64,000 nucleotides of DNA, taken from Halomonas sp. BDJS001 (GTDB lineage Bacteria; Pseudomonadota; Gammaproteobacteria; Pseudomonadales; Halomonadaceae). The notes beneath the pieces are model-generated. The model searched no databases. It was not told where the DNA came from and saw nothing but the letters and a program-made list of their open reading frames with translations. Of the stretch, positions 8,132-13,635 are shown in pieces (within the stretch, counting starts at the first letter, position 1; each line of letters opens with the position of its first letter). The position numbers and the translations under genes are program-made. The stretch is from positions 558,001 to 622,000 of the forward strand of contig NZ_CP110535.1 in the NCBI RefSeq assembly GCF_026104355.1, given 5' to 3'.

Positions 8132-8158
8132 ATGAGCAACTTTCTAACACACCGATGA
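8132..8158 (+). CDS. Putative 8-residue leader peptide overlapping rho
   Basis: The ATG at 8132 opens a frame MSNFLTHR whose TGA (8156-8158) overlaps the rho ATG (8155-8157) as ATGA. Such an overlap is typical of translational coupling. Neither this ATG nor the rho ATG has a clear Shine-Dalgarno sequence. E. coli has a short leader reading frame (rhoL) ahead of rho, but it is longer (33 codons). Translation here is an inference; an 8-codon frame can occur by chance. Confidence 0.4.
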
Positions 8159-9414
8159 ATCTCACTGAACTCAAGCAAAAAACCGTTCCCGAGCTCCTCG
8201 ATATCGCCCGTGAAATGGGTATTGATAACTTGGCCCGTTCGCGCAAGCAGGACATCATTTTCGCCATCCTCAAGAAACACGCCAAAAGTGGCGAGGATAT
8301 CTATGGCGACGGTGTGCTGGAAATTCTTCAGGATGGCTTCGGCTTCCTGCGTAGCGCTGACAGCTCGTATCTCGCCGGTCCCGACGATATCTATATATCG
8401 CCTTCGCAGATCCGCCGTTTCAATCTGCGCAAGGGTGACTCCATTTCCGGCAAAATCCGCCCGCCGAAGGAGGGTGAACGCTATTTCGCCCTGCTGAAGG
8501 TCAGTCAAATCAACTTTGACCGTCCGGAAAATGCCAAGCACAAGATCCTGTTTGAGAACTTAACGCCACTGTTCCCAGACGATCGTATGCGTATGGAGAT
8601 CGGTAACGGCTCCACGGAAGACCTTACCGCGCGGATCATCGATCTAACCGCGCCAATCGGTAAAGGCCAACGTGGTCTGCTGGTATCGCCGCCCAAGGCG
8701 GGTAAGACGCTGATGTTGCAGAACATCGCGACCTCCATCACACGCAACAACCCAGAGTGTCATCTGATCGTACTGCTGATCGATGAGCGCCCTGAAGAAG
8801 TGACCGAAATGTCGCGCACCGTGCGTGGCGAAGTCGTGGCGTCGACCTTCGATGAGCCACCGGCGCGTCACGTGCAAGTGGCTGAAATGGTCATCGAGAA
8901 AGCCAAGCGCCTGGTCGAGCACAAGAAAGACGTGGTCATTCTGCTCGACTCGATTACTCGCTTAGCGCGTGCCTACAACACCGTGGTACCGAGCTCCGGC
9001 AAAGTACTTACCGGTGGTGTCGATGCCCACGCCCTTGAAAAGCCGAAACGCTTCTTTGGTGCGGCGCGTAACATCGAAGAGGGCGGCAGCCTGACGATTA
9101 TCGCCACGGCGTTGGTCGATACCGGCTCCAAAATGGACGAAGTCATCTTCGAAGAGTTCAAGGGTACCGGCAATATGGAAGCCCACCTGGATCGCAAGCT
9201 GGCTGAGCGTCGCGTATTCCCGGCGATCAATATCCGTCGCAGTGGCACCCGTCGTGAAGACCTGCTGGCCTCTGAGGATGAAATGCAGCGTATGTGGATT
9301 CTGCGCAAGCTACTCAATCCGATGGAAGATACCGCCGCCACTGAATTCCTGATTGACCGTCTGAAAGATACCAAGACCAATCTCGAGTTCTTTGAAGCGA
9401 TGAAACGTCGCTAA
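8155..9414 (+). CDS. rho: Transcription termination factor Rho
   Basis: Hexameric RNA-dependent ATPase and RNA/DNA helicase that ends transcription at C-rich rut sites. It has 419 residues, the same as E. coli, and is nearly collinear. The N-terminal helix bundle ([20 protein letters not shown]) leads to the cold-shock-like RNA-binding domain containing DGFGFLR and SPSQIRRF. Walker A is PPKAGKT at residues 179-185. Downstream lie [12 protein letters not shown], the Walker B segment [16 protein letters not shown] and the Q/R-loop region [16 protein letters not shown]. It follows a long structured leader and overlaps an 8-codon frame. ubiD is downstream on the same strand. Confidence 0.98.
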
Positions 9415-9470
9415 GTGGTAGCGCAAATGCGACGCTAGCGTGTAGTGCAGAACCGCCGCTATGATCAACG

Positions 9471-9492
9471 CCGCTAATGTCATCTAGCGGCG
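9471..9492 (+). other. Inverted repeat between rho and ubiD
   Basis: CGCCGCTA and TAGCGGCG flank an 8-base loop, giving an 8-bp GC-rich stem just before the ubiD ribosome site. No T-run follows, so it is a weak terminator candidate at best. Coordinates are by hand count. Confidence 0.35.
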
Positions 9493-9516
9493 CATTCGCC
9501 AGCCAGGGAGCGTGCC

Positions 9517-11007
9517 TTGAAGTACAAAGACCTGCGTGAGTTCATCGCGGCGCTTGAAGCCCAGGGTGAACTCAAACGTATCCATGTCGAAGTCGATCCT
9601 TACCTGGAAATCACCGAAATTTGTGACCGCACACTGCGTGCCGGTGGCCCGGCGTTGCTGTTTGAAAACGTCAAAGGCCACGACATGCCGCTGCTGGGTA
9701 ACCTGTTTGGCACTCCAAAGCGGGTGGCGCTGGGCATGGGGCAGGAGTCGGTAGAAGCACTCAGAGAAGTGGGCAAGCTGTTAGCATTTCTCAAAGAGCC
9801 TGATCCGCCCAAAGGCTTGAAAGACGCCTGGGACAAGCTGCCGATCTTCAAGCAAGTGCTTAGCATGGGGCCGAAAAACGTTAAGCACGCGTCGGTGCAA
9901 GAGGTGGTGTATGAAGACGACGAGGTCGACCTTGGCCTGCTACCGATTCAGCACTGCTGGCCTGGCGATGCAGCGCCGCTGGTTACCTGGCCACTGGTGA
10001 TTACCAAAGGGCCGCATAAGAAGCGCCAGAATCTAGGTATTTACCGCCAGCAGAAAATTGGCAAAAACCGGCTAATCATGCGCTGGCTCTCCCATCGTGG
10101 CGGCGCGCTGGATTTTCTGGAGTTCCAAAAAGCCCACCCAGGCGAACCTTTCCCCGTTGCAGTGGCGCTTGGCGCCGACCCGGCGACGATATTGGGTGCG
10201 GTTACTCCGGTGCCGGATTCGCTCTCGGAGTACGCCTTTGCGGGCCTGCTGCGCGGTTCGCGCACCGAGTTGGTGAAGTGCGCCCATGCTGATCTGGATG
10301 TGCCCGCGTCCAGCGAGATTATCCTCGAAGGCTTTATCTACCCCGATGATATGGCGGCGGAAGGCCCCTTTGGTGACCACACCGGTTACTACAATGAGGT
10401 CGACCACTTCCCGGTGTTTACCATCACGCGGATGACTATGCGCCGTGATGCGATTTATCACTCGACCTACACCGGGCGTCCGCCGGACGAGCCGGCGATT
10501 CTGGGTGTGGCGCTCAACGAAGTCTTTGTGCCCATTCTGTGTAAGCAGTTCCCCGAAATTGTCGACTTCTACCTGCCGCCGGAAGGTTGTTCATACCGCA
10601 TGGCGGTGGTCACCATGAAGAAGCAGTACCCCGGCCACGCCAAGCGCGTGATGATGGGGGTGTGGAGCTTCCTGCGTCAGTTTATGTACACCAAGTTTGT
10701 GATTGTGCTGGATGACGACGTGGACGCGCGCAATTGGGAAGACGTAATCTGGGCGATCACCACCCGGATGGATCCCGCCCGGGACACTGTGATGGTCGAA
10801 AATACCCCGATTGATTATCTCGATTTCGCCTCGCCAGTCTCGGGCCTCGGCTCGAAAATGGGCCTGGATGCCACCAATAAGTGGCCAGGCGAAACGGATC
10901 GTGAATGGGGCACCCCGATTGTGATGGACGATGCCGTTAAAGCGCGGGTGGATGAACGTTGGGAAGCGCTGGGGATTGACCTTGAATTGCCGCCCGCTCG
11001 CCGCTGA
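9517..11007 (+). CDS. ubiD: 4-hydroxy-3-polyprenylbenzoate decarboxylase
   Basis: Decarboxylates 3-polyprenyl-4-hydroxybenzoate in ubiquinone synthesis using prenylated FMN supplied by UbiX, which is not in the window. It has 496 residues, as in E. coli. The N-terminus [20 protein letters not shown] aligns with E. coli [40 protein letters not shown] is a family hallmark. The segments [10 protein letters not shown] and [11 protein letters not shown] belong to the prFMN/metal region. The start is TTG at 9517, chosen because AGGGAG (9505-9510) lies six bases upstream and no in-frame ATG precedes the conserved start. The fre-like reductase follows closely. Confidence 0.96.
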
Positions 11008-11048
11008 ATGCGATGTATCGCTGACCAAATTTGTTAAAAGAGGCTTTC

Positions 11049-11789
11049 ATGAGTGCAAGGACGTTGACGTGCCAGGTCACCGAGGTTGAGAACTTAAGCC
11101 CCGATGTGTTTGGTGTGACGCTCGCCGGGCGCGCTGAAGCCATGCAGCACGCGCCAGGGCAATATTTAGAGCTTAAACTGGACGATGCCACCTGGGTGCC
11201 GTTTTCGATCGCCAGTGCCGACCGCAGTGATGGTGTTATCGAGCTGCATATACAGCACTGGCCGGAGCGGGATAACTCAGCGCGGCTGCGTGAACTGCTG
11301 CAGGTAGCCAACCAGCTCACGCTGCGTTTACCTAGCGGCGAGTGCGTGCTTGATCGTCAAAGCCAACGTCCGTTAATGCTGATTGCCGCGGGCACCGGTT
11401 TTTCCCAGATGAAAGCGATCATCGAAGCGGTGCTGCACGAACAGCCTGAGCGGGAAATTTCGCTGTGGTGGGCAGCCCGCGAACACCGCGATCTCTATTT
11501 GGAGCAACTGGCGAGCCACTGGGCACAAACCCACGCCAATGTTTGCTTCCATGCGGTAACCGAATCGCCTTTGGAAGAGCCGTTAGCAGCGGGCGAGCGG
11601 ATCTCCCATCACTTGGGCCGTATTGATCAGGTGTTGAAAAGCGCCGATATCACCCCAGACACCCACGATGTCTATATCTCGGGTTCGCCCAACATGGTCT
11701 ACGCCTGCCTGGATGTGCTCGACACAAAAGGCACAAAGCTTGAGCGGGTGTTTTCGGATGTGTTTGCCTACGCCCCCCGTTCTACTTAA
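11049..11789 (+). CDS. fre: NAD(P)H-flavin reductase (Fre/LuxG type)
   Basis: Flavin reductase of the ferredoxin-NADP reductase fold, 246 residues. FAD/flavin-binding motif PFSIAS is preceded by APGQYLEL. The NAD-binding half begins LMLIAAGTGFSQMKAII, with YISGSPNMVYACLDVL near the end; E. coli Fre has AGGTGFSYARSIL and SGGPDLV at these places. It probably reduces free riboflavin or FMN with NAD(P)H. In E. coli, fre lies beside ubiD, as here, which supports the name. The ATG at 11049 is preferred over an in-frame TTG at 11031 because AGAGG lies at proper spacing before it. Confidence 0.88.
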   Translation: MSARTLTCQVTEVENLSPDVFGVTLAGRAEAMQHAPGQYLELKLDDATWVPFSIASADRSDGVIELHIQHWPERDNSARLRELLQVANQLTLRLPSGECVLDRQSQRPLMLIAAGTGFSQMKAIIEAVLHEQPEREISLWWAAREHRDLYLEQLASHWAQTHANVCFHAVTESPLEEPLAAGERISHHLGRIDQVLKSADITPDTHDVYISGSPNMVYACLDVLDTKGTKLERVFSDVFAYAPRST

Positions 11790-11848
11790 TATGACCGCAG
11801 CGTTGTAACGCTCCCCCTGATATAGCGTTGTCAAAAAAGGAGGCTAAC

Positions 11849-11977
11849 ATGGCCCAACACGACGAAAACTTTAAAGACGATTCTGGTTTCCTGTCCATCT
11901 TTCTAGGCTTGGTGGTGCTGGTTAGCATGAGCGCGCTGCCCGCAACCATTGGTTGGGTACAAGCTTTTAGCGGTTGA
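11849..11977 (+). CDS. Small membrane protein of unknown function (42 aa)
   Basis: A 42-residue frame beginning MAQHDENFKDDSGF, followed by one hydrophobic helix (LSIFLGLVVLVSMSALPATI) and ending GWVQAFSG. A perfect AGGAGG ribosome site precedes the ATG at five to six bases, much stronger than most sites in the window, so translation is likely. The acidic, polar N-terminus followed by one transmembrane helix suggests a single-pass inner-membrane microprotein. I do not recognise the family. It lies between fre and the DAHP synthase leader region. Confidence 0.7.
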   Translation: MAQHDENFKDDSGFLSIFLGLVVLVSMSALPATIGWVQAFSG

Positions 11978-12101
11978 GTGTTGCCATTTGCAGCGCTTGC
12001 AGGCAGGATAAAACCTCAACGCCATGGCGGCAGCCCTATCATACGATTTACTTGGGCTAGCGATTGCCAGCGGAACTAACAGAATTTAACGGAATATGGG
12101 C

Positions 12102-12212
12102 ATGCAGCGACTAACCACCCCACATACAGTAAACCCACAGCCAGTATTGGCTGGTGGCTTTGCGTTTTATGGGTATTGGTTTAGCCACGGTGTGCCCCTG
12201 GCCGACGCCTAA
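12102..12212 (+). CDS. Aromatic-rich leader peptide 1 upstream of DAHP synthase
   Basis: A 36-codon frame, ATG at 12102 (an in-frame ATG lies six bases earlier), TAA at 12210-12212. Codons 20-27 read TTT GCG TTT TAT GGG TAT TGG TTT, giving FAFYGYWF: six aromatic codons in eight, including Phe, Tyr and Trp. This is the composition of an attenuator leader peptide (compare PheL, TrpL). The RNA after the control codons can form GTGGCT/AGCCAC (12154-12159/12183-12188) and an 8+3 bp stem (12189-12201/12223-12233). A strong terminator hairpin follows at 12257. Stalling at aromatic codons when charged tRNA is scarce would then favour read-through into the DAHP synthase gene; this mechanism is inferred. 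Confidence 0.75.
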   Translation: MQRLTTPHTVNPQPVLAGGFAFYGYWFSHGVPLADA

Positions 12213-12256
12213 CGTCGCGCCACCAGGCACACCACTCGGTTGCCTGCCGCAAGCAC

Positions 12257-12298
12257 AGAAGCCCCGGTCGGTAACCCCGCCGGGGCTTCTGGCGTTTT
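12257..12298 (+). terminator. Intrinsic terminator/attenuator of the DAHP synthase leader
   Basis: AGAAGCCCCGG (12257-12267) and CCGGGGCTTCT (12280-12290) form a perfect 11-bp stem with a 12-base loop, followed by GGCGTTTTA. It lies 44 bases after the stop of leader peptide 1 and about 250 bases before the DAHP synthase start. This is the expected place for an attenuator terminator. Confidence 0.75.
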
Positions 12299-12373
12299 AG
12301 GGCCCCAGCGATTTATAGACTGAGCGATTTTCGGCAATAGTTATTCATCATTATTTCATCAAGGAGCAGCATC

Positions 12374-12535
12374 ATGATCTATCGCGCACTGACTAACGCT
12401 TTCGCTACCTATTTTGTGGGTTATGGCTATAGCTGGCGATTTAGCGACGCGCGGTCGGTGCTAGCTGCCACCTCCGACCGTGTTTACTTGGGTGGTCACA
12501 CAGCCATACGATGTCACACGATCGCGGAGAGTTAA
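12374..12535 (+). CDS. Aromatic-rich leader peptide 2, adjoining DAHP synthase
   Basis: A 53-codon frame, ATG at 12374 with AAGGAG seven bases upstream, TAA at 12533-12535, only two bases before the DAHP synthase ATG. Residues 10-23 read FATYFVGYGYSWRF, with Phe at 10, 14 and 23, Tyr at 13, 17 and 19 and Trp at 21. A GC-rich hairpin CGGTCGG/CCGACCG (12452-12458/12474-12480) lies within its 3' half and is followed by TGTTTACTT, a weak terminator-like stretch. The strong ribosome site and the abutting stop suggest translational coupling with the enzyme, and possibly a second attenuation step. The pattern recalls leader 1, so chance is unlikely, but function is inferred. Confidence 0.65.
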   Translation: MIYRALTNAFATYFVGYGYSWRFSDARSVLAATSDRVYLGGHTAIRCHTIAES

Positions 12536-12537
12536 TC

Positions 12538-13635
12538 ATGAATGCGCCTGTCAGCCCTGTTATTAATAAAACTGTTGTAACCACTGCCCACGCTACTGCT
12601 CGACTAACGCCTTCAGCGCCTGAGCCCACTGCCAAGCGGCTGCCTACCCCCGCTGAACTCAGGCAACGTATCTCGTTAAGCGACCCGCTAACGGAACAAA
12701 TTGCCCGCCAGCGCCACGCCGTACAGCAAATTTTGAGTGGTCACGATGACCGCCTGCTGGTTGTCGTTGGCCCTTGCTCCGTTCACGACCCAGATGCAGC
12801 GCTGGAATACGCCGACCGCTTGGCTGCGCTAAGCGAAGAGATCAGCGAACGTATTTTACCGGTCATGCGCGTCTACGTTGAAAAACCGCGCACTACCGTG
12901 GGCTGGAAAGGGCTGGCCTACGACCCTGGCTTGGATGGCAGCGGTGATATGCCCCGTGGGTTGGCGCTCTCTCGTGAACTGATGCATGCCGTAGCTGCTC
13001 GCGGCTTGCCAGTGGCTACCGAGCTCCTACAGCCGATGTTGGCGCCCTACGTAGACGACTTACTAAGCTGGGTGGCGATTGGCGCACGCACCACCGAATC
13101 TCAGCTGCACCGTGAGCTGGCCAGTGATTTGTCAGCGGCGGTGGGGTTCAAAAATGCCACCAGTGGCGATGTACAAGTGGCGATTGATGCCATGAGTGCG
13201 GCGACCCATCCGCACCAGCGTTTTGCAGTGGATGCTCACGGTCATCCGGTCGTCCAGCATACCGTGGGCAACCCGCATACCCACGTGGTGCTACGCGGTG
13301 GTCACGGTGAGCCTAACTATCAGGCCCAACACATACGTGCGGCGACCACCGCGCTGCATAATGCCGGGCAAAACCCACGGCTCATGGTGGATTGCAGCCA
13401 TGCCAATGCCCGCAAAGATCATCGCCGACAGAGTGAAGTCATGCTGGATGTATTGGCGCAGCGTCAGGCAGGCGAAGCCAACCTGGTCGCGCTGATGCTG
13501 GAAAGCCACCTGTTCGAAGGTAAGCAGCCGCTCAAGCCTGGCGCCCTGCGCTACGGCGTATCGGTCACCGATGCCTGCGTGGGCTGGGAAACGACCGAGC
13601 ACTTACTTAAAACGGCTGCCGATAGATTGGCGTAA
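12538..13635 (+). CDS. 3-deoxy-7-phosphoheptulonate (DAHP) synthase, AroG/F/H class
   Basis: Condenses phosphoenolpyruvate with erythrose 4-phosphate, the first step of the shikimate pathway to Phe, Tyr and Trp. It has 365 residues; E. coli isozymes have 348-356. Family motifs are VVVGPCSVHDP, MRVYVEKPRTTVGWKG, IGARTTESQ, VGFKNATSG, VDCSHANARKDHRRQ and GVSVTDACVGWE. The allosteric specificity (Phe, Tyr or Trp) cannot be told safely from sequence, so no isozyme letter is given. The ATG at 12538 follows GGAGAG at good spacing; an in-frame ATG at 12511 lies inside leader 2 and is less likely. Regulation by the upstream tandem leader is proposed. Confidence 0.93.
   Translation: MNAPVSPVINKTVVTTAHATARLTPSAPEPTAKRLPTPAELRQRISLSDPLTEQIARQRHAVQQILSGHDDRLLVVVGPCSVHDPDAALEYADRLAALSEEISERILPVMRVYVEKPRTTVGWKGLAYDPGLDGSGDMPRGLALSRELMHAVAARGLPVATELLQPMLAPYVDDLLSWVAIGARTTESQLHRELASDLSAAVGFKNATSGDVQVAIDAMSAATHPHQRFAVDAHGHPVVQHTVGNPHTHVVLRGGHGEPNYQAQHIRAATTALHNAGQNPRLMVDCSHANARKDHRRQSEVMLDVLAQRQAGEANLVALMLESHLFEGKQPLKPGALRYGVSVTDACVGWETTEHLLKTAADRLA

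Follow-up and report, generated by a model that had tools for sequence, protein, structure and literature searches.

A putative two-stage, ribosome-read sensor of aromatic supply upstream of the DAHP synthase gene in Halomonas

Introduction

The DAHP synthases of E. coli are described as being under TyrR and TrpR control (PMC11802643). In C. glutamicum, aroF has a leader, aroR (Neshat 2014, cited after PMC11802643; a prediction appears in PMC4046766), and this pair resembles the locus described below: an aromatic-codon leader peptide precedes a DAHP synthase gene, and stalling raises expression. It differs in that C. glutamicum is an actinobacterium, its leader carries Phe-Tyr-Phe and is said to answer Phe, not Tyr, and the available text of PMC11802643 and PMC4046766 mentions neither Trp, nor a tandem leader, nor a pseudoknot. 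E. coli trpL and pheL share control codons, mutually exclusive hairpins, and an intrinsic terminator with the present locus (in part after PMC11802643), where, unlike in E. coli trp and pheA, all three aromatic residues would be read and the target gene stands at the head of the common pathway. Tandem attenuators are described for Salmonella mgtCBR, likewise with two short ORFs in one leader and with other genes and signals (available text of PMC3641672).

The mechanism class is therefore known. Among the open-access matches listed—a scope outside which most subscription papers lie—none describes attenuation of a DAHP synthase gene in Pseudomonas or Halomonas, and none treats the Rfam family RF00627 (Pseudomonas sRNA P15) as an aromatic leader; the tandem layout, the pseudoknot, the inverted role of segment 1, and the P15 identity proposed below are likewise undescribed in those matches. 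The available text of three further papers mentions neither aroF, aroG, nor "aromatic" (PMC2965389), neither aroG, aroF, nor DAHP (PMC4833913), and none of P15, PA1750, PA2843, and aroF (PMC8297930).

Here we analyze the leader region of an aroG-type DAHP synthase gene within a window of 64,000 nucleotides from Halomonas sp. BDJS001 (NZ_CP110535.1). We propose, with a probability of roughly 0.8, that a two-stage, ribosome-read sensor of aromatic supply precedes this gene.

Results

Two Aromatic-Rich Frames Precede aroG

An original prediction, made from the letters of this DNA, had placed a single Phe/Tyr/Trp leader peptide with an attenuator before the DAHP synthase gene. Two small aromatic-rich frames, not one, lie 5' of aroG in the window; beyond the earlier reading, we add this second leader in tandem, an extension of the element to 12535, and the correspondence to P15. 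The features are as follows.

12096-12212, + strand: leader peptide 1 ORF, kept in relatives, stop TAA at 12210-12212
within 12159-12182, + strand: leader 1 control codons TTT TTT TAT TAT TGG TTT
12158-12286, + strand: whole-model match to RF00627 (Pseudomonas sRNA P15), 27.1 bits, E 0.0016
12189-12196, + strand: segment A5 (GGTGTGCC), pairing at a fixed distance
12226-12233, + strand: segment A3 (GGCACACC), alternative partners A5 or C
12238-12244, + strand: segment C (GGTTGCC), alternative partners A3 or D
12257-12290, + strand: intrinsic terminator hairpin, 11 bp perfect, then GGCGTTTTAGG
12270-12276, + strand: segment D (GGTAACC), at the apex of the terminator; pairs with C in the proposed antiterminator
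12374-12535, + strand: leader peptide 2 ORF (MIYRALTNAFATYFVGYGYSWRFSD...), AAGGAG upstream, stop TAA at 12533-12535
12434-12445, + strand: TGG CGA TTT AGC (W R F S), with CGA and TTT in 93/93 loci
12452-12480, + strand: putative pseudoknot stem P, CGGTCGG 12452-12458 with CCGACCG 12474-12480
12467-12496, + strand: putative pseudoknot stem Q, GCCACC 12467-12472 with GGTGGT 12491-12496
12538-13635, + strand: aroG-type DAHP synthase (PF00793, TIGR00034)

On the aroG strand, an apparent rho gene (by eye), ubiD, and a flavin reductase gene precede the leader (8155-11789). Between the flavin reductase gene and leader 1 lies a 42-residue frame (11849-11977) with AAGGAGG before it and a hydrophobic middle, which matched no family at cut-off. 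A simple scan of the + strand over 11790-12560 returned no terminator-like or promoter-like site and no promoter consensus.

The frame at 12102-12212 translates as MQRLTTPHTVNPQPVLAGGFAFYGYWFSHGVPLADA, with an alternative start at 12096, and its codons 20-27 (F A F Y G Y W F) contain the predicted six aromatic residues in eight. By itself, the cluster is only moderately unusual: the window holds two small ORFs with at least six aromatic residues in eight, the other being a different frame within a larger ORF, and 6/60 first-order Markov simulations of the window gave at least one comparable cluster. Leader 1 stands above chance because it recurs before the same gene in two families.

Loci for this comparison were sampled via DAHP synthase and comprised 80 named loci (L001-L080) and 30 same-genus loci (L081-L110, partly from the same genomes), so that several of these 110 represent one genome counted twice; the Pseudomonas sample was the best 30 of 119 genomes with a match. 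Leader 1 and the terminator hairpin recur before aroG in both Halomonadaceae and Pseudomonadaceae, and both leaders occur in 30/30 Pseudomonas loci, with leader 1 of L152 ending in TAT, not TTT. The leader 1 anchor missed six of the 80 named loci (L023, L031, L032, L036, L046, and L050), and most loci so missed carry a variant such as W-Y-G-Y-F. A further order-wide sample (30 loci inspected, from 35 genomes of the order) placed leader 1 in Pseudomonadaceae genera (loci L183-L191 and L193) and in one other family (L194), and the script rule found none in L196-L210. Two of the latter, L199 and L201, are Pseudomonadaceae whose sole DAHP synthase match is ~50% identical. No such leader was found at the DAHP synthase paralogue of this genome. 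Some 345 nt ahead of its DAHP synthase match, a locus of another family of the order (L195, genome G468) has an aromatic-rich frame of other sequence (...CSWWFGYGFYFSQYPGRP), perhaps a third variant of the device.

Synonymous choice within leader 1 is skewed. Counting 10 codons each in 134/140 loci (27 of the 134 with W-Y rather than W-F as anchor), we obtained TTT 226 vs. TTC 30 and TAT 246 vs. TAC 27; over the initial 330 codons of the aroG matches at these loci, the counts were TTT:TTC 95:382 and TAT:TAC 213:565. TTT and TAT would be the slower codons of their synonymous pairs. Leader 1 thus appears as a short frame rich in codons for the pathway products, conserved before the pathway gene.

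Competing Pairings Downstream of Leader 1

The terminator arms (12257-12267 and 12280-12290) are fully complementary over 11 bp, exactly as predicted. The tail in the window, GGCGTTTTAGGG, is a weak U-tract, as it is in the window's genus; the Pseudomonas tail is TTTTGTTTTTT or similar. Terminator counterparts were scored in 96/100 anchored loci, among which L025 was probably mis-scored; its row was kept, despite the doubtful terminator, in the A5:A3, C:D, and ribosome-state analyses below.

Segment A5 begins 9 nt past position 12180, where the last control codon (TTT) starts. Scored at a maximum of 8, with G-U counted half, A5 reached at least 7/8 with its best partner, at a fixed place, in 61/66 distinct Halomonadaceae rows, which were shifted to the last TTT where W-F-x-Y-W-F is present. 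In these 66 rows the mean A5:A3 score was 7.7 for cognate and 6.6 for non-cognate pairs, a level matched by 0/10000 permutations, and the variants among relatives include GGTGTGCC:GGCACACC, GGCGTGCC:GGCACGCC, GGAGTGCC:GGCACTCC, GGTGCGCC:GGCGCACC, and others. The stem proposed earlier at 12189-12233 is this pairing, present in the window and conserved; aligned across Halomonadaceae, the codon cluster is conserved and A5:A3 covaries. A second proposed stem, at 12154-12188, is present (GTGGCT/AGCCAC) but is not constant in relatives (folds of 27 loci, by eye).

Segment A3 can alternatively pair with the C region, in the window as CAGGCA 12224-12229 with TGCCTG 12241-12246 and elsewhere as GAGGCA:TGCCTC. 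C, in turn, can pair with D, and this supplies the antiterminator that the original prediction could not draw by hand. Across 86 distinct rows with a scored terminator, the mean best duplex of the C side with D was −15.9 kcal/mol for cognate vs. −14.2 kcal/mol for non-cognate pairs (0/10000 permutations). C:D occurs as GGGTTGCC:GGCAACCC, is swapped for GGGCTGCC:GGCAGCCC in Salinicola (L070, L074, and L075), and is weaker in Pseudomonas. Median energies over 64 Halomonadaceae rows (L025 and L037 dropped, no C block) were −29.5 for A5:A3, −14.6 for A3:C, −17.9 for C:D, and −25.0 kcal/mol for the terminator.

On comparative sequence evidence, the three pairings A5:A3, A3:C, and C:D are in competition, and permutation tests back the first and the last; the hairpins are mutually exclusive and include an intrinsic terminator, whose U-tract is weak in this genus. 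Conserved codons, covarying stems, and a competing antiterminator together support the predicted ribosome-mediated attenuation by a Phe/Tyr/Trp leader, and the first stage (12096-12290) is very probably a transcription attenuator.

Ribosome Position and the Proposed Switch at Stage 1

The ribosome positions and direction of control that we infer for stage 1 are these. When any aromatic amino acid is scarce, the ribosome would wait at a Phe, Tyr, or Trp codon up to the TTT at 12180; because A5 begins 9 nt past that last control codon, A5 would stay just beyond the mRNA entry and pair with A3, freeing C. Free C would pair with D once D is made, the terminator would be delayed, and RNA polymerase would read through. 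When all three aminoacyl-tRNAs are plentiful, the ribosome would cover A5 and the stop codon, A3:C would form, and the terminator would fold. Stalling in the trp and pheA attenuators of E. coli hides segment 1 beneath the ribosome. Unlike in the trp logic, the waiting ribosome here would halt short of A5 and let segment 1 pair.

Folds of the window RNA ending just past D switched as proposed: with the ribosome at F27 (bases blocked to 12188), pairing was 1.0 for A5:A3, 1.0 for C:D, and 0.0 for A3:C; with the ribosome on the stop codon (12192-12221 blocked), A3:C was 0.97 and C:D 0.02. This on-stop fold is sensitive to set-up. Relatives were folded as 90 rows, with L016, L028, L030, L054, identical rows, and the window itself left out and with the sequence before TTT removed. 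C:D was favored in 89/90 rows in the waiting state. On the stop codon, at equilibrium and with D made, C:D fell below 0.5 in 18/64 Halomonadaceae vs. 19/26 Pseudomonas rows, and in the near relatives L001-L004 it stayed at 0.95-1.00, with no upstream sequence included. Folding agrees in part with the proposed switch between states; the equilibrium OFF state is missing in most Halomonadaceae.

Because equilibrium on-stop folds keep C:D in most Halomonadaceae, the OFF branch would need kinetic trapping, with A3:C made before D exists. For RNA ending just past C, C was paired upstream in 89/90 rows in the on-stop state; in the waiting state it was less than 0.5 paired upstream in 68/90 and still paired in 22/90. 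With the full RNA in the window, the terminator won in every ribosome state tried, and read-through must therefore be decided during transcription.

Leader 2 and a Candidate Pseudoknot

Leader 2 reads MIYRALTNAFATYFVGYGYSWRFSDARSVLAATSDRVYLGGHTAIRCHTIAES and stops 2 nt before the aroG ATG. It is present in 102/110 of loci L001-L110 (93 by protein pattern and nine more by string) and missing from eight: L060 and seven Salinicola-like loci, which still carry leader 1; a recount of the absences misses L097, at a contig end. TGG CGA TTT is used in all 93 loci retrieved by the protein pattern, which fixed residues and not codons. The 12-mer TGGCGATTTAGC is conserved past its amino acid meaning, to judge from the rare CGA, the TTT, and the mostly AGC codons, and no complementary partner of this invariant 12-mer was seen by eye. 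Leader 1 has TGGTTTAGC in common with it.

Alignment A1 holds 63 leader 2 cores; its rows were selected for containing the string TGGCGATTTA, which makes them identical there by definition. The alignment reveals two interleaved helices: P (CGGTCGG:CCGACCG, up to 3 pairs longer) and Q (GCCACC:GGTGGC). Of the 1008 pseudoknot cells, 94.2% are paired, compared with 30-45% in slid versions; 10/16 pairs are altered on both sides in at least one row, giving 49 such cells, and 0/500 shuffles reached this level of pairing and covariation. Examples include Q as GCCATC:GATGGC in L021; C-G for U-A within P and Q as GCCGCC:GGCGGC in L058; and, in Cobetia (L078), whose peptide is different, Q as GTCACC:GGTGAC and, by eye and with the register shifted by one, P as CCTGCC:GGCAGG. 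Loop lengths are 8, 1, and 10 nt, and only L058 and L078 show indels, of 3 and 6 nt. Stems P and Q could instead be alternatives to each other; the near-constant loops make an H-type pseudoknot—two interleaved, covarying helices with short loops—the better fit than two free alternative hairpins.

Within the host genome, the covariance model R1 finds only the aroG locus (next match E 1.09), with no second leader 2 element, and a second exact TGGCGATTTAGC lies within a stretch showing no aromatic leader. A class-wide R1 search matched 1/369 genomes, a result that is uninformative because few relatives were drawn and filters were stricter. An order-wide pattern search matched 33/390 genomes, 18 of them Halomonadaceae or Pseudomonas; the remaining 15 matches appear fortuitous. 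Other Pseudomonadaceae genera often retain TGGCGATTTAGC with no evident pseudoknot (e.g., L185 and L189), and the codons therefore appear to be the wider feature; L190 has WRY, and no WRF motif was seen in L186.

Several further elements lie near leader 2. A CGATGT (or CGAAGT) motif occurs ~9-35 nt past the pseudoknot in most Halomonadaceae rows (12509-12514 in the window); its ATG at 12511 is in the aroG frame in the window (+9 residues) and off frame in some relatives. In locus L103, a unit resembling ACGCGAAGTCAT occurs four times in tandem between the leader 2 pseudoknot and aroG. In L192 (genome G353, Halomonadaceae), a long hairpin of CACGCTGGCGG with CCGCCGGCGTG takes the pseudoknot's place, 188 nt before the DAHP synthase match. 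A role of the Q/P strand (GCCACCTCCGACCG) in hiding the ribosome-binding site of aroG was considered and rejected, the signal being weak (179/10000 permutations) and kinship-confounded.

Proposed Action of Stage 2

Stem P starts 9-12 nt past the first base of TTT, close to the leader 1 spacing. We suggest that in stage 2 (12374-12535) the last control codons, UGG CGA UUU, lie at this distance (counted from UUU) so that a waiting ribosome would most likely leave the pseudoknot intact, and a moving ribosome would melt it and end translation on the aroG ribosome-binding site. As the moving ribosome would end there, aroG translation would depend on leader 2 traffic. That stage 2 acts by translational control is a possibility to which we give somewhat less than even odds.

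Where the leader 2 stop falls bears on the main competitor, in which leader 2 governs Rho-dependent termination or mRNA stability and not aroG translation initiation. Against this competitor, 49/63 rows, all outside Pseudomonas, place the stop between −8 and +4 nt relative to the aroG ATG, and their structure is the putative pseudoknot. In its favor, the stop of the Pseudomonas rows lies 39-50 nt upstream of aroG, and the RNA past TGGCGATTTAGC looks, by eye, C-rich and weakly structured in several Pseudomonadaceae. We regard control through Rho or stability as unlikely, though as a serious second candidate: as a first guess, leader 2 traffic and translation come first and Rho second. The full version of the preferred reading—a tandem sensor in Halomonadaceae and many Pseudomonadaceae, in which a P15-type attenuator is followed by a ribosome held at UGG-CGA-UUU that gates a pseudoknot for enzyme translation—is accordingly tentative, with odds of about one in three.

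Leader 1 Corresponds to Rfam P15

In Pseudomonadaceae, RF00627 covers leader 1 and the terminator; the model stops short of leader 2. A permissive Rfam scan of 11950-12650 gave the weak whole-model match in the window, which at 27.1 bits is below the gathering score of 70 bits and is not a family member by the Rfam threshold. The next-best match in the same genome had E 6.7, and under the stricter filters of the order-wide search the genome had no RF00627 match. When 20 loci were scored, the cut-off was reached in 14/15 Pseudomonadaceae and 0/5 Halomonadaceae. Order-wide, 28 matches fell in 27/293 genomes, 14 of them above the cut-off. The best 20 of the 28 all lie on the same strand as a DAHP synthase match, 41-303 nt before its start, and 18 of these 20 carry the TAT/TAC-TGG leader anchor. 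An extra weak P15 match in genome G719 falls in what appears to be a tRNA gene, and the 3.2 kb around it contains no DAHP synthase. None of the Rfam leader families of the E. coli type (trp, phe, and others) matched the window at the gathering score, and 11950-12650 contained no match to them up to E 10.

P15 belongs to the P. aeruginosa sRNAs detected by Livny et al. and, as far as the available text of the citing study goes, was not found again there (PMC2375449). That record, and Rfam's filing of P15 as a gene, would suit a trans-acting sRNA that lies upstream of aroG incidentally, with an equally incidental peptide frame. We consider this improbable: the conserved core is an open frame of Phe, Tyr, and Trp codons with skewed synonymous choice, the competing stems stand at a fixed codon distance, and the 20 best P15 loci all precede a DAHP synthase. 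A dual role, as leader and trans-acting sRNA, may exist. Because leader 1 corresponds to P15, we instead take the P15 "sRNA" as probably the aborted, terminated transcript of the aroG leader, a sensor of aromatic supply; position, partners, and the weak whole-model match are what tie the window's leader 1 to P15.

Programmed frameshifting at CGA TTT AGC, driven by the pseudoknot, is less likely still. The spacing, the H-type fold, and a −1 stop, TAG, inside TTTAGC would suit it, but there is no canonical slippery heptamer, the Rfam DnaX frameshift element appears at E 7.7 only, and elsewhere, and the open length of the aroG frame upstream differs among relatives, so that there is no conserved fusion. 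A ligand-binding riboswitch in place of the ribosome-read attenuator, suggested for P15 from synteny (available text of PMC2527527), is the least credible reading, since no Rfam family reaches threshold in the window and it is the control codons and helices that are conserved, the loops being variable.

Discussion

If the two-stage sensor is real, the first committed aromatic step would gain a sensor of total aromatic tRNA charging, and an orphan Pseudomonas "sRNA" would be explained as the aborted leader of its neighbor gene. Leader 2 is unusual in combining codons fixed to the third base with a covarying candidate pseudoknot at ribosome distance. A ribosome-gated pseudoknot that reads aminoacyl-tRNA supply would, if true, represent a new class of leader-peptide control, and the arrangement would bear on the engineering of aromatic production in Halomonas and Pseudomonas putida.
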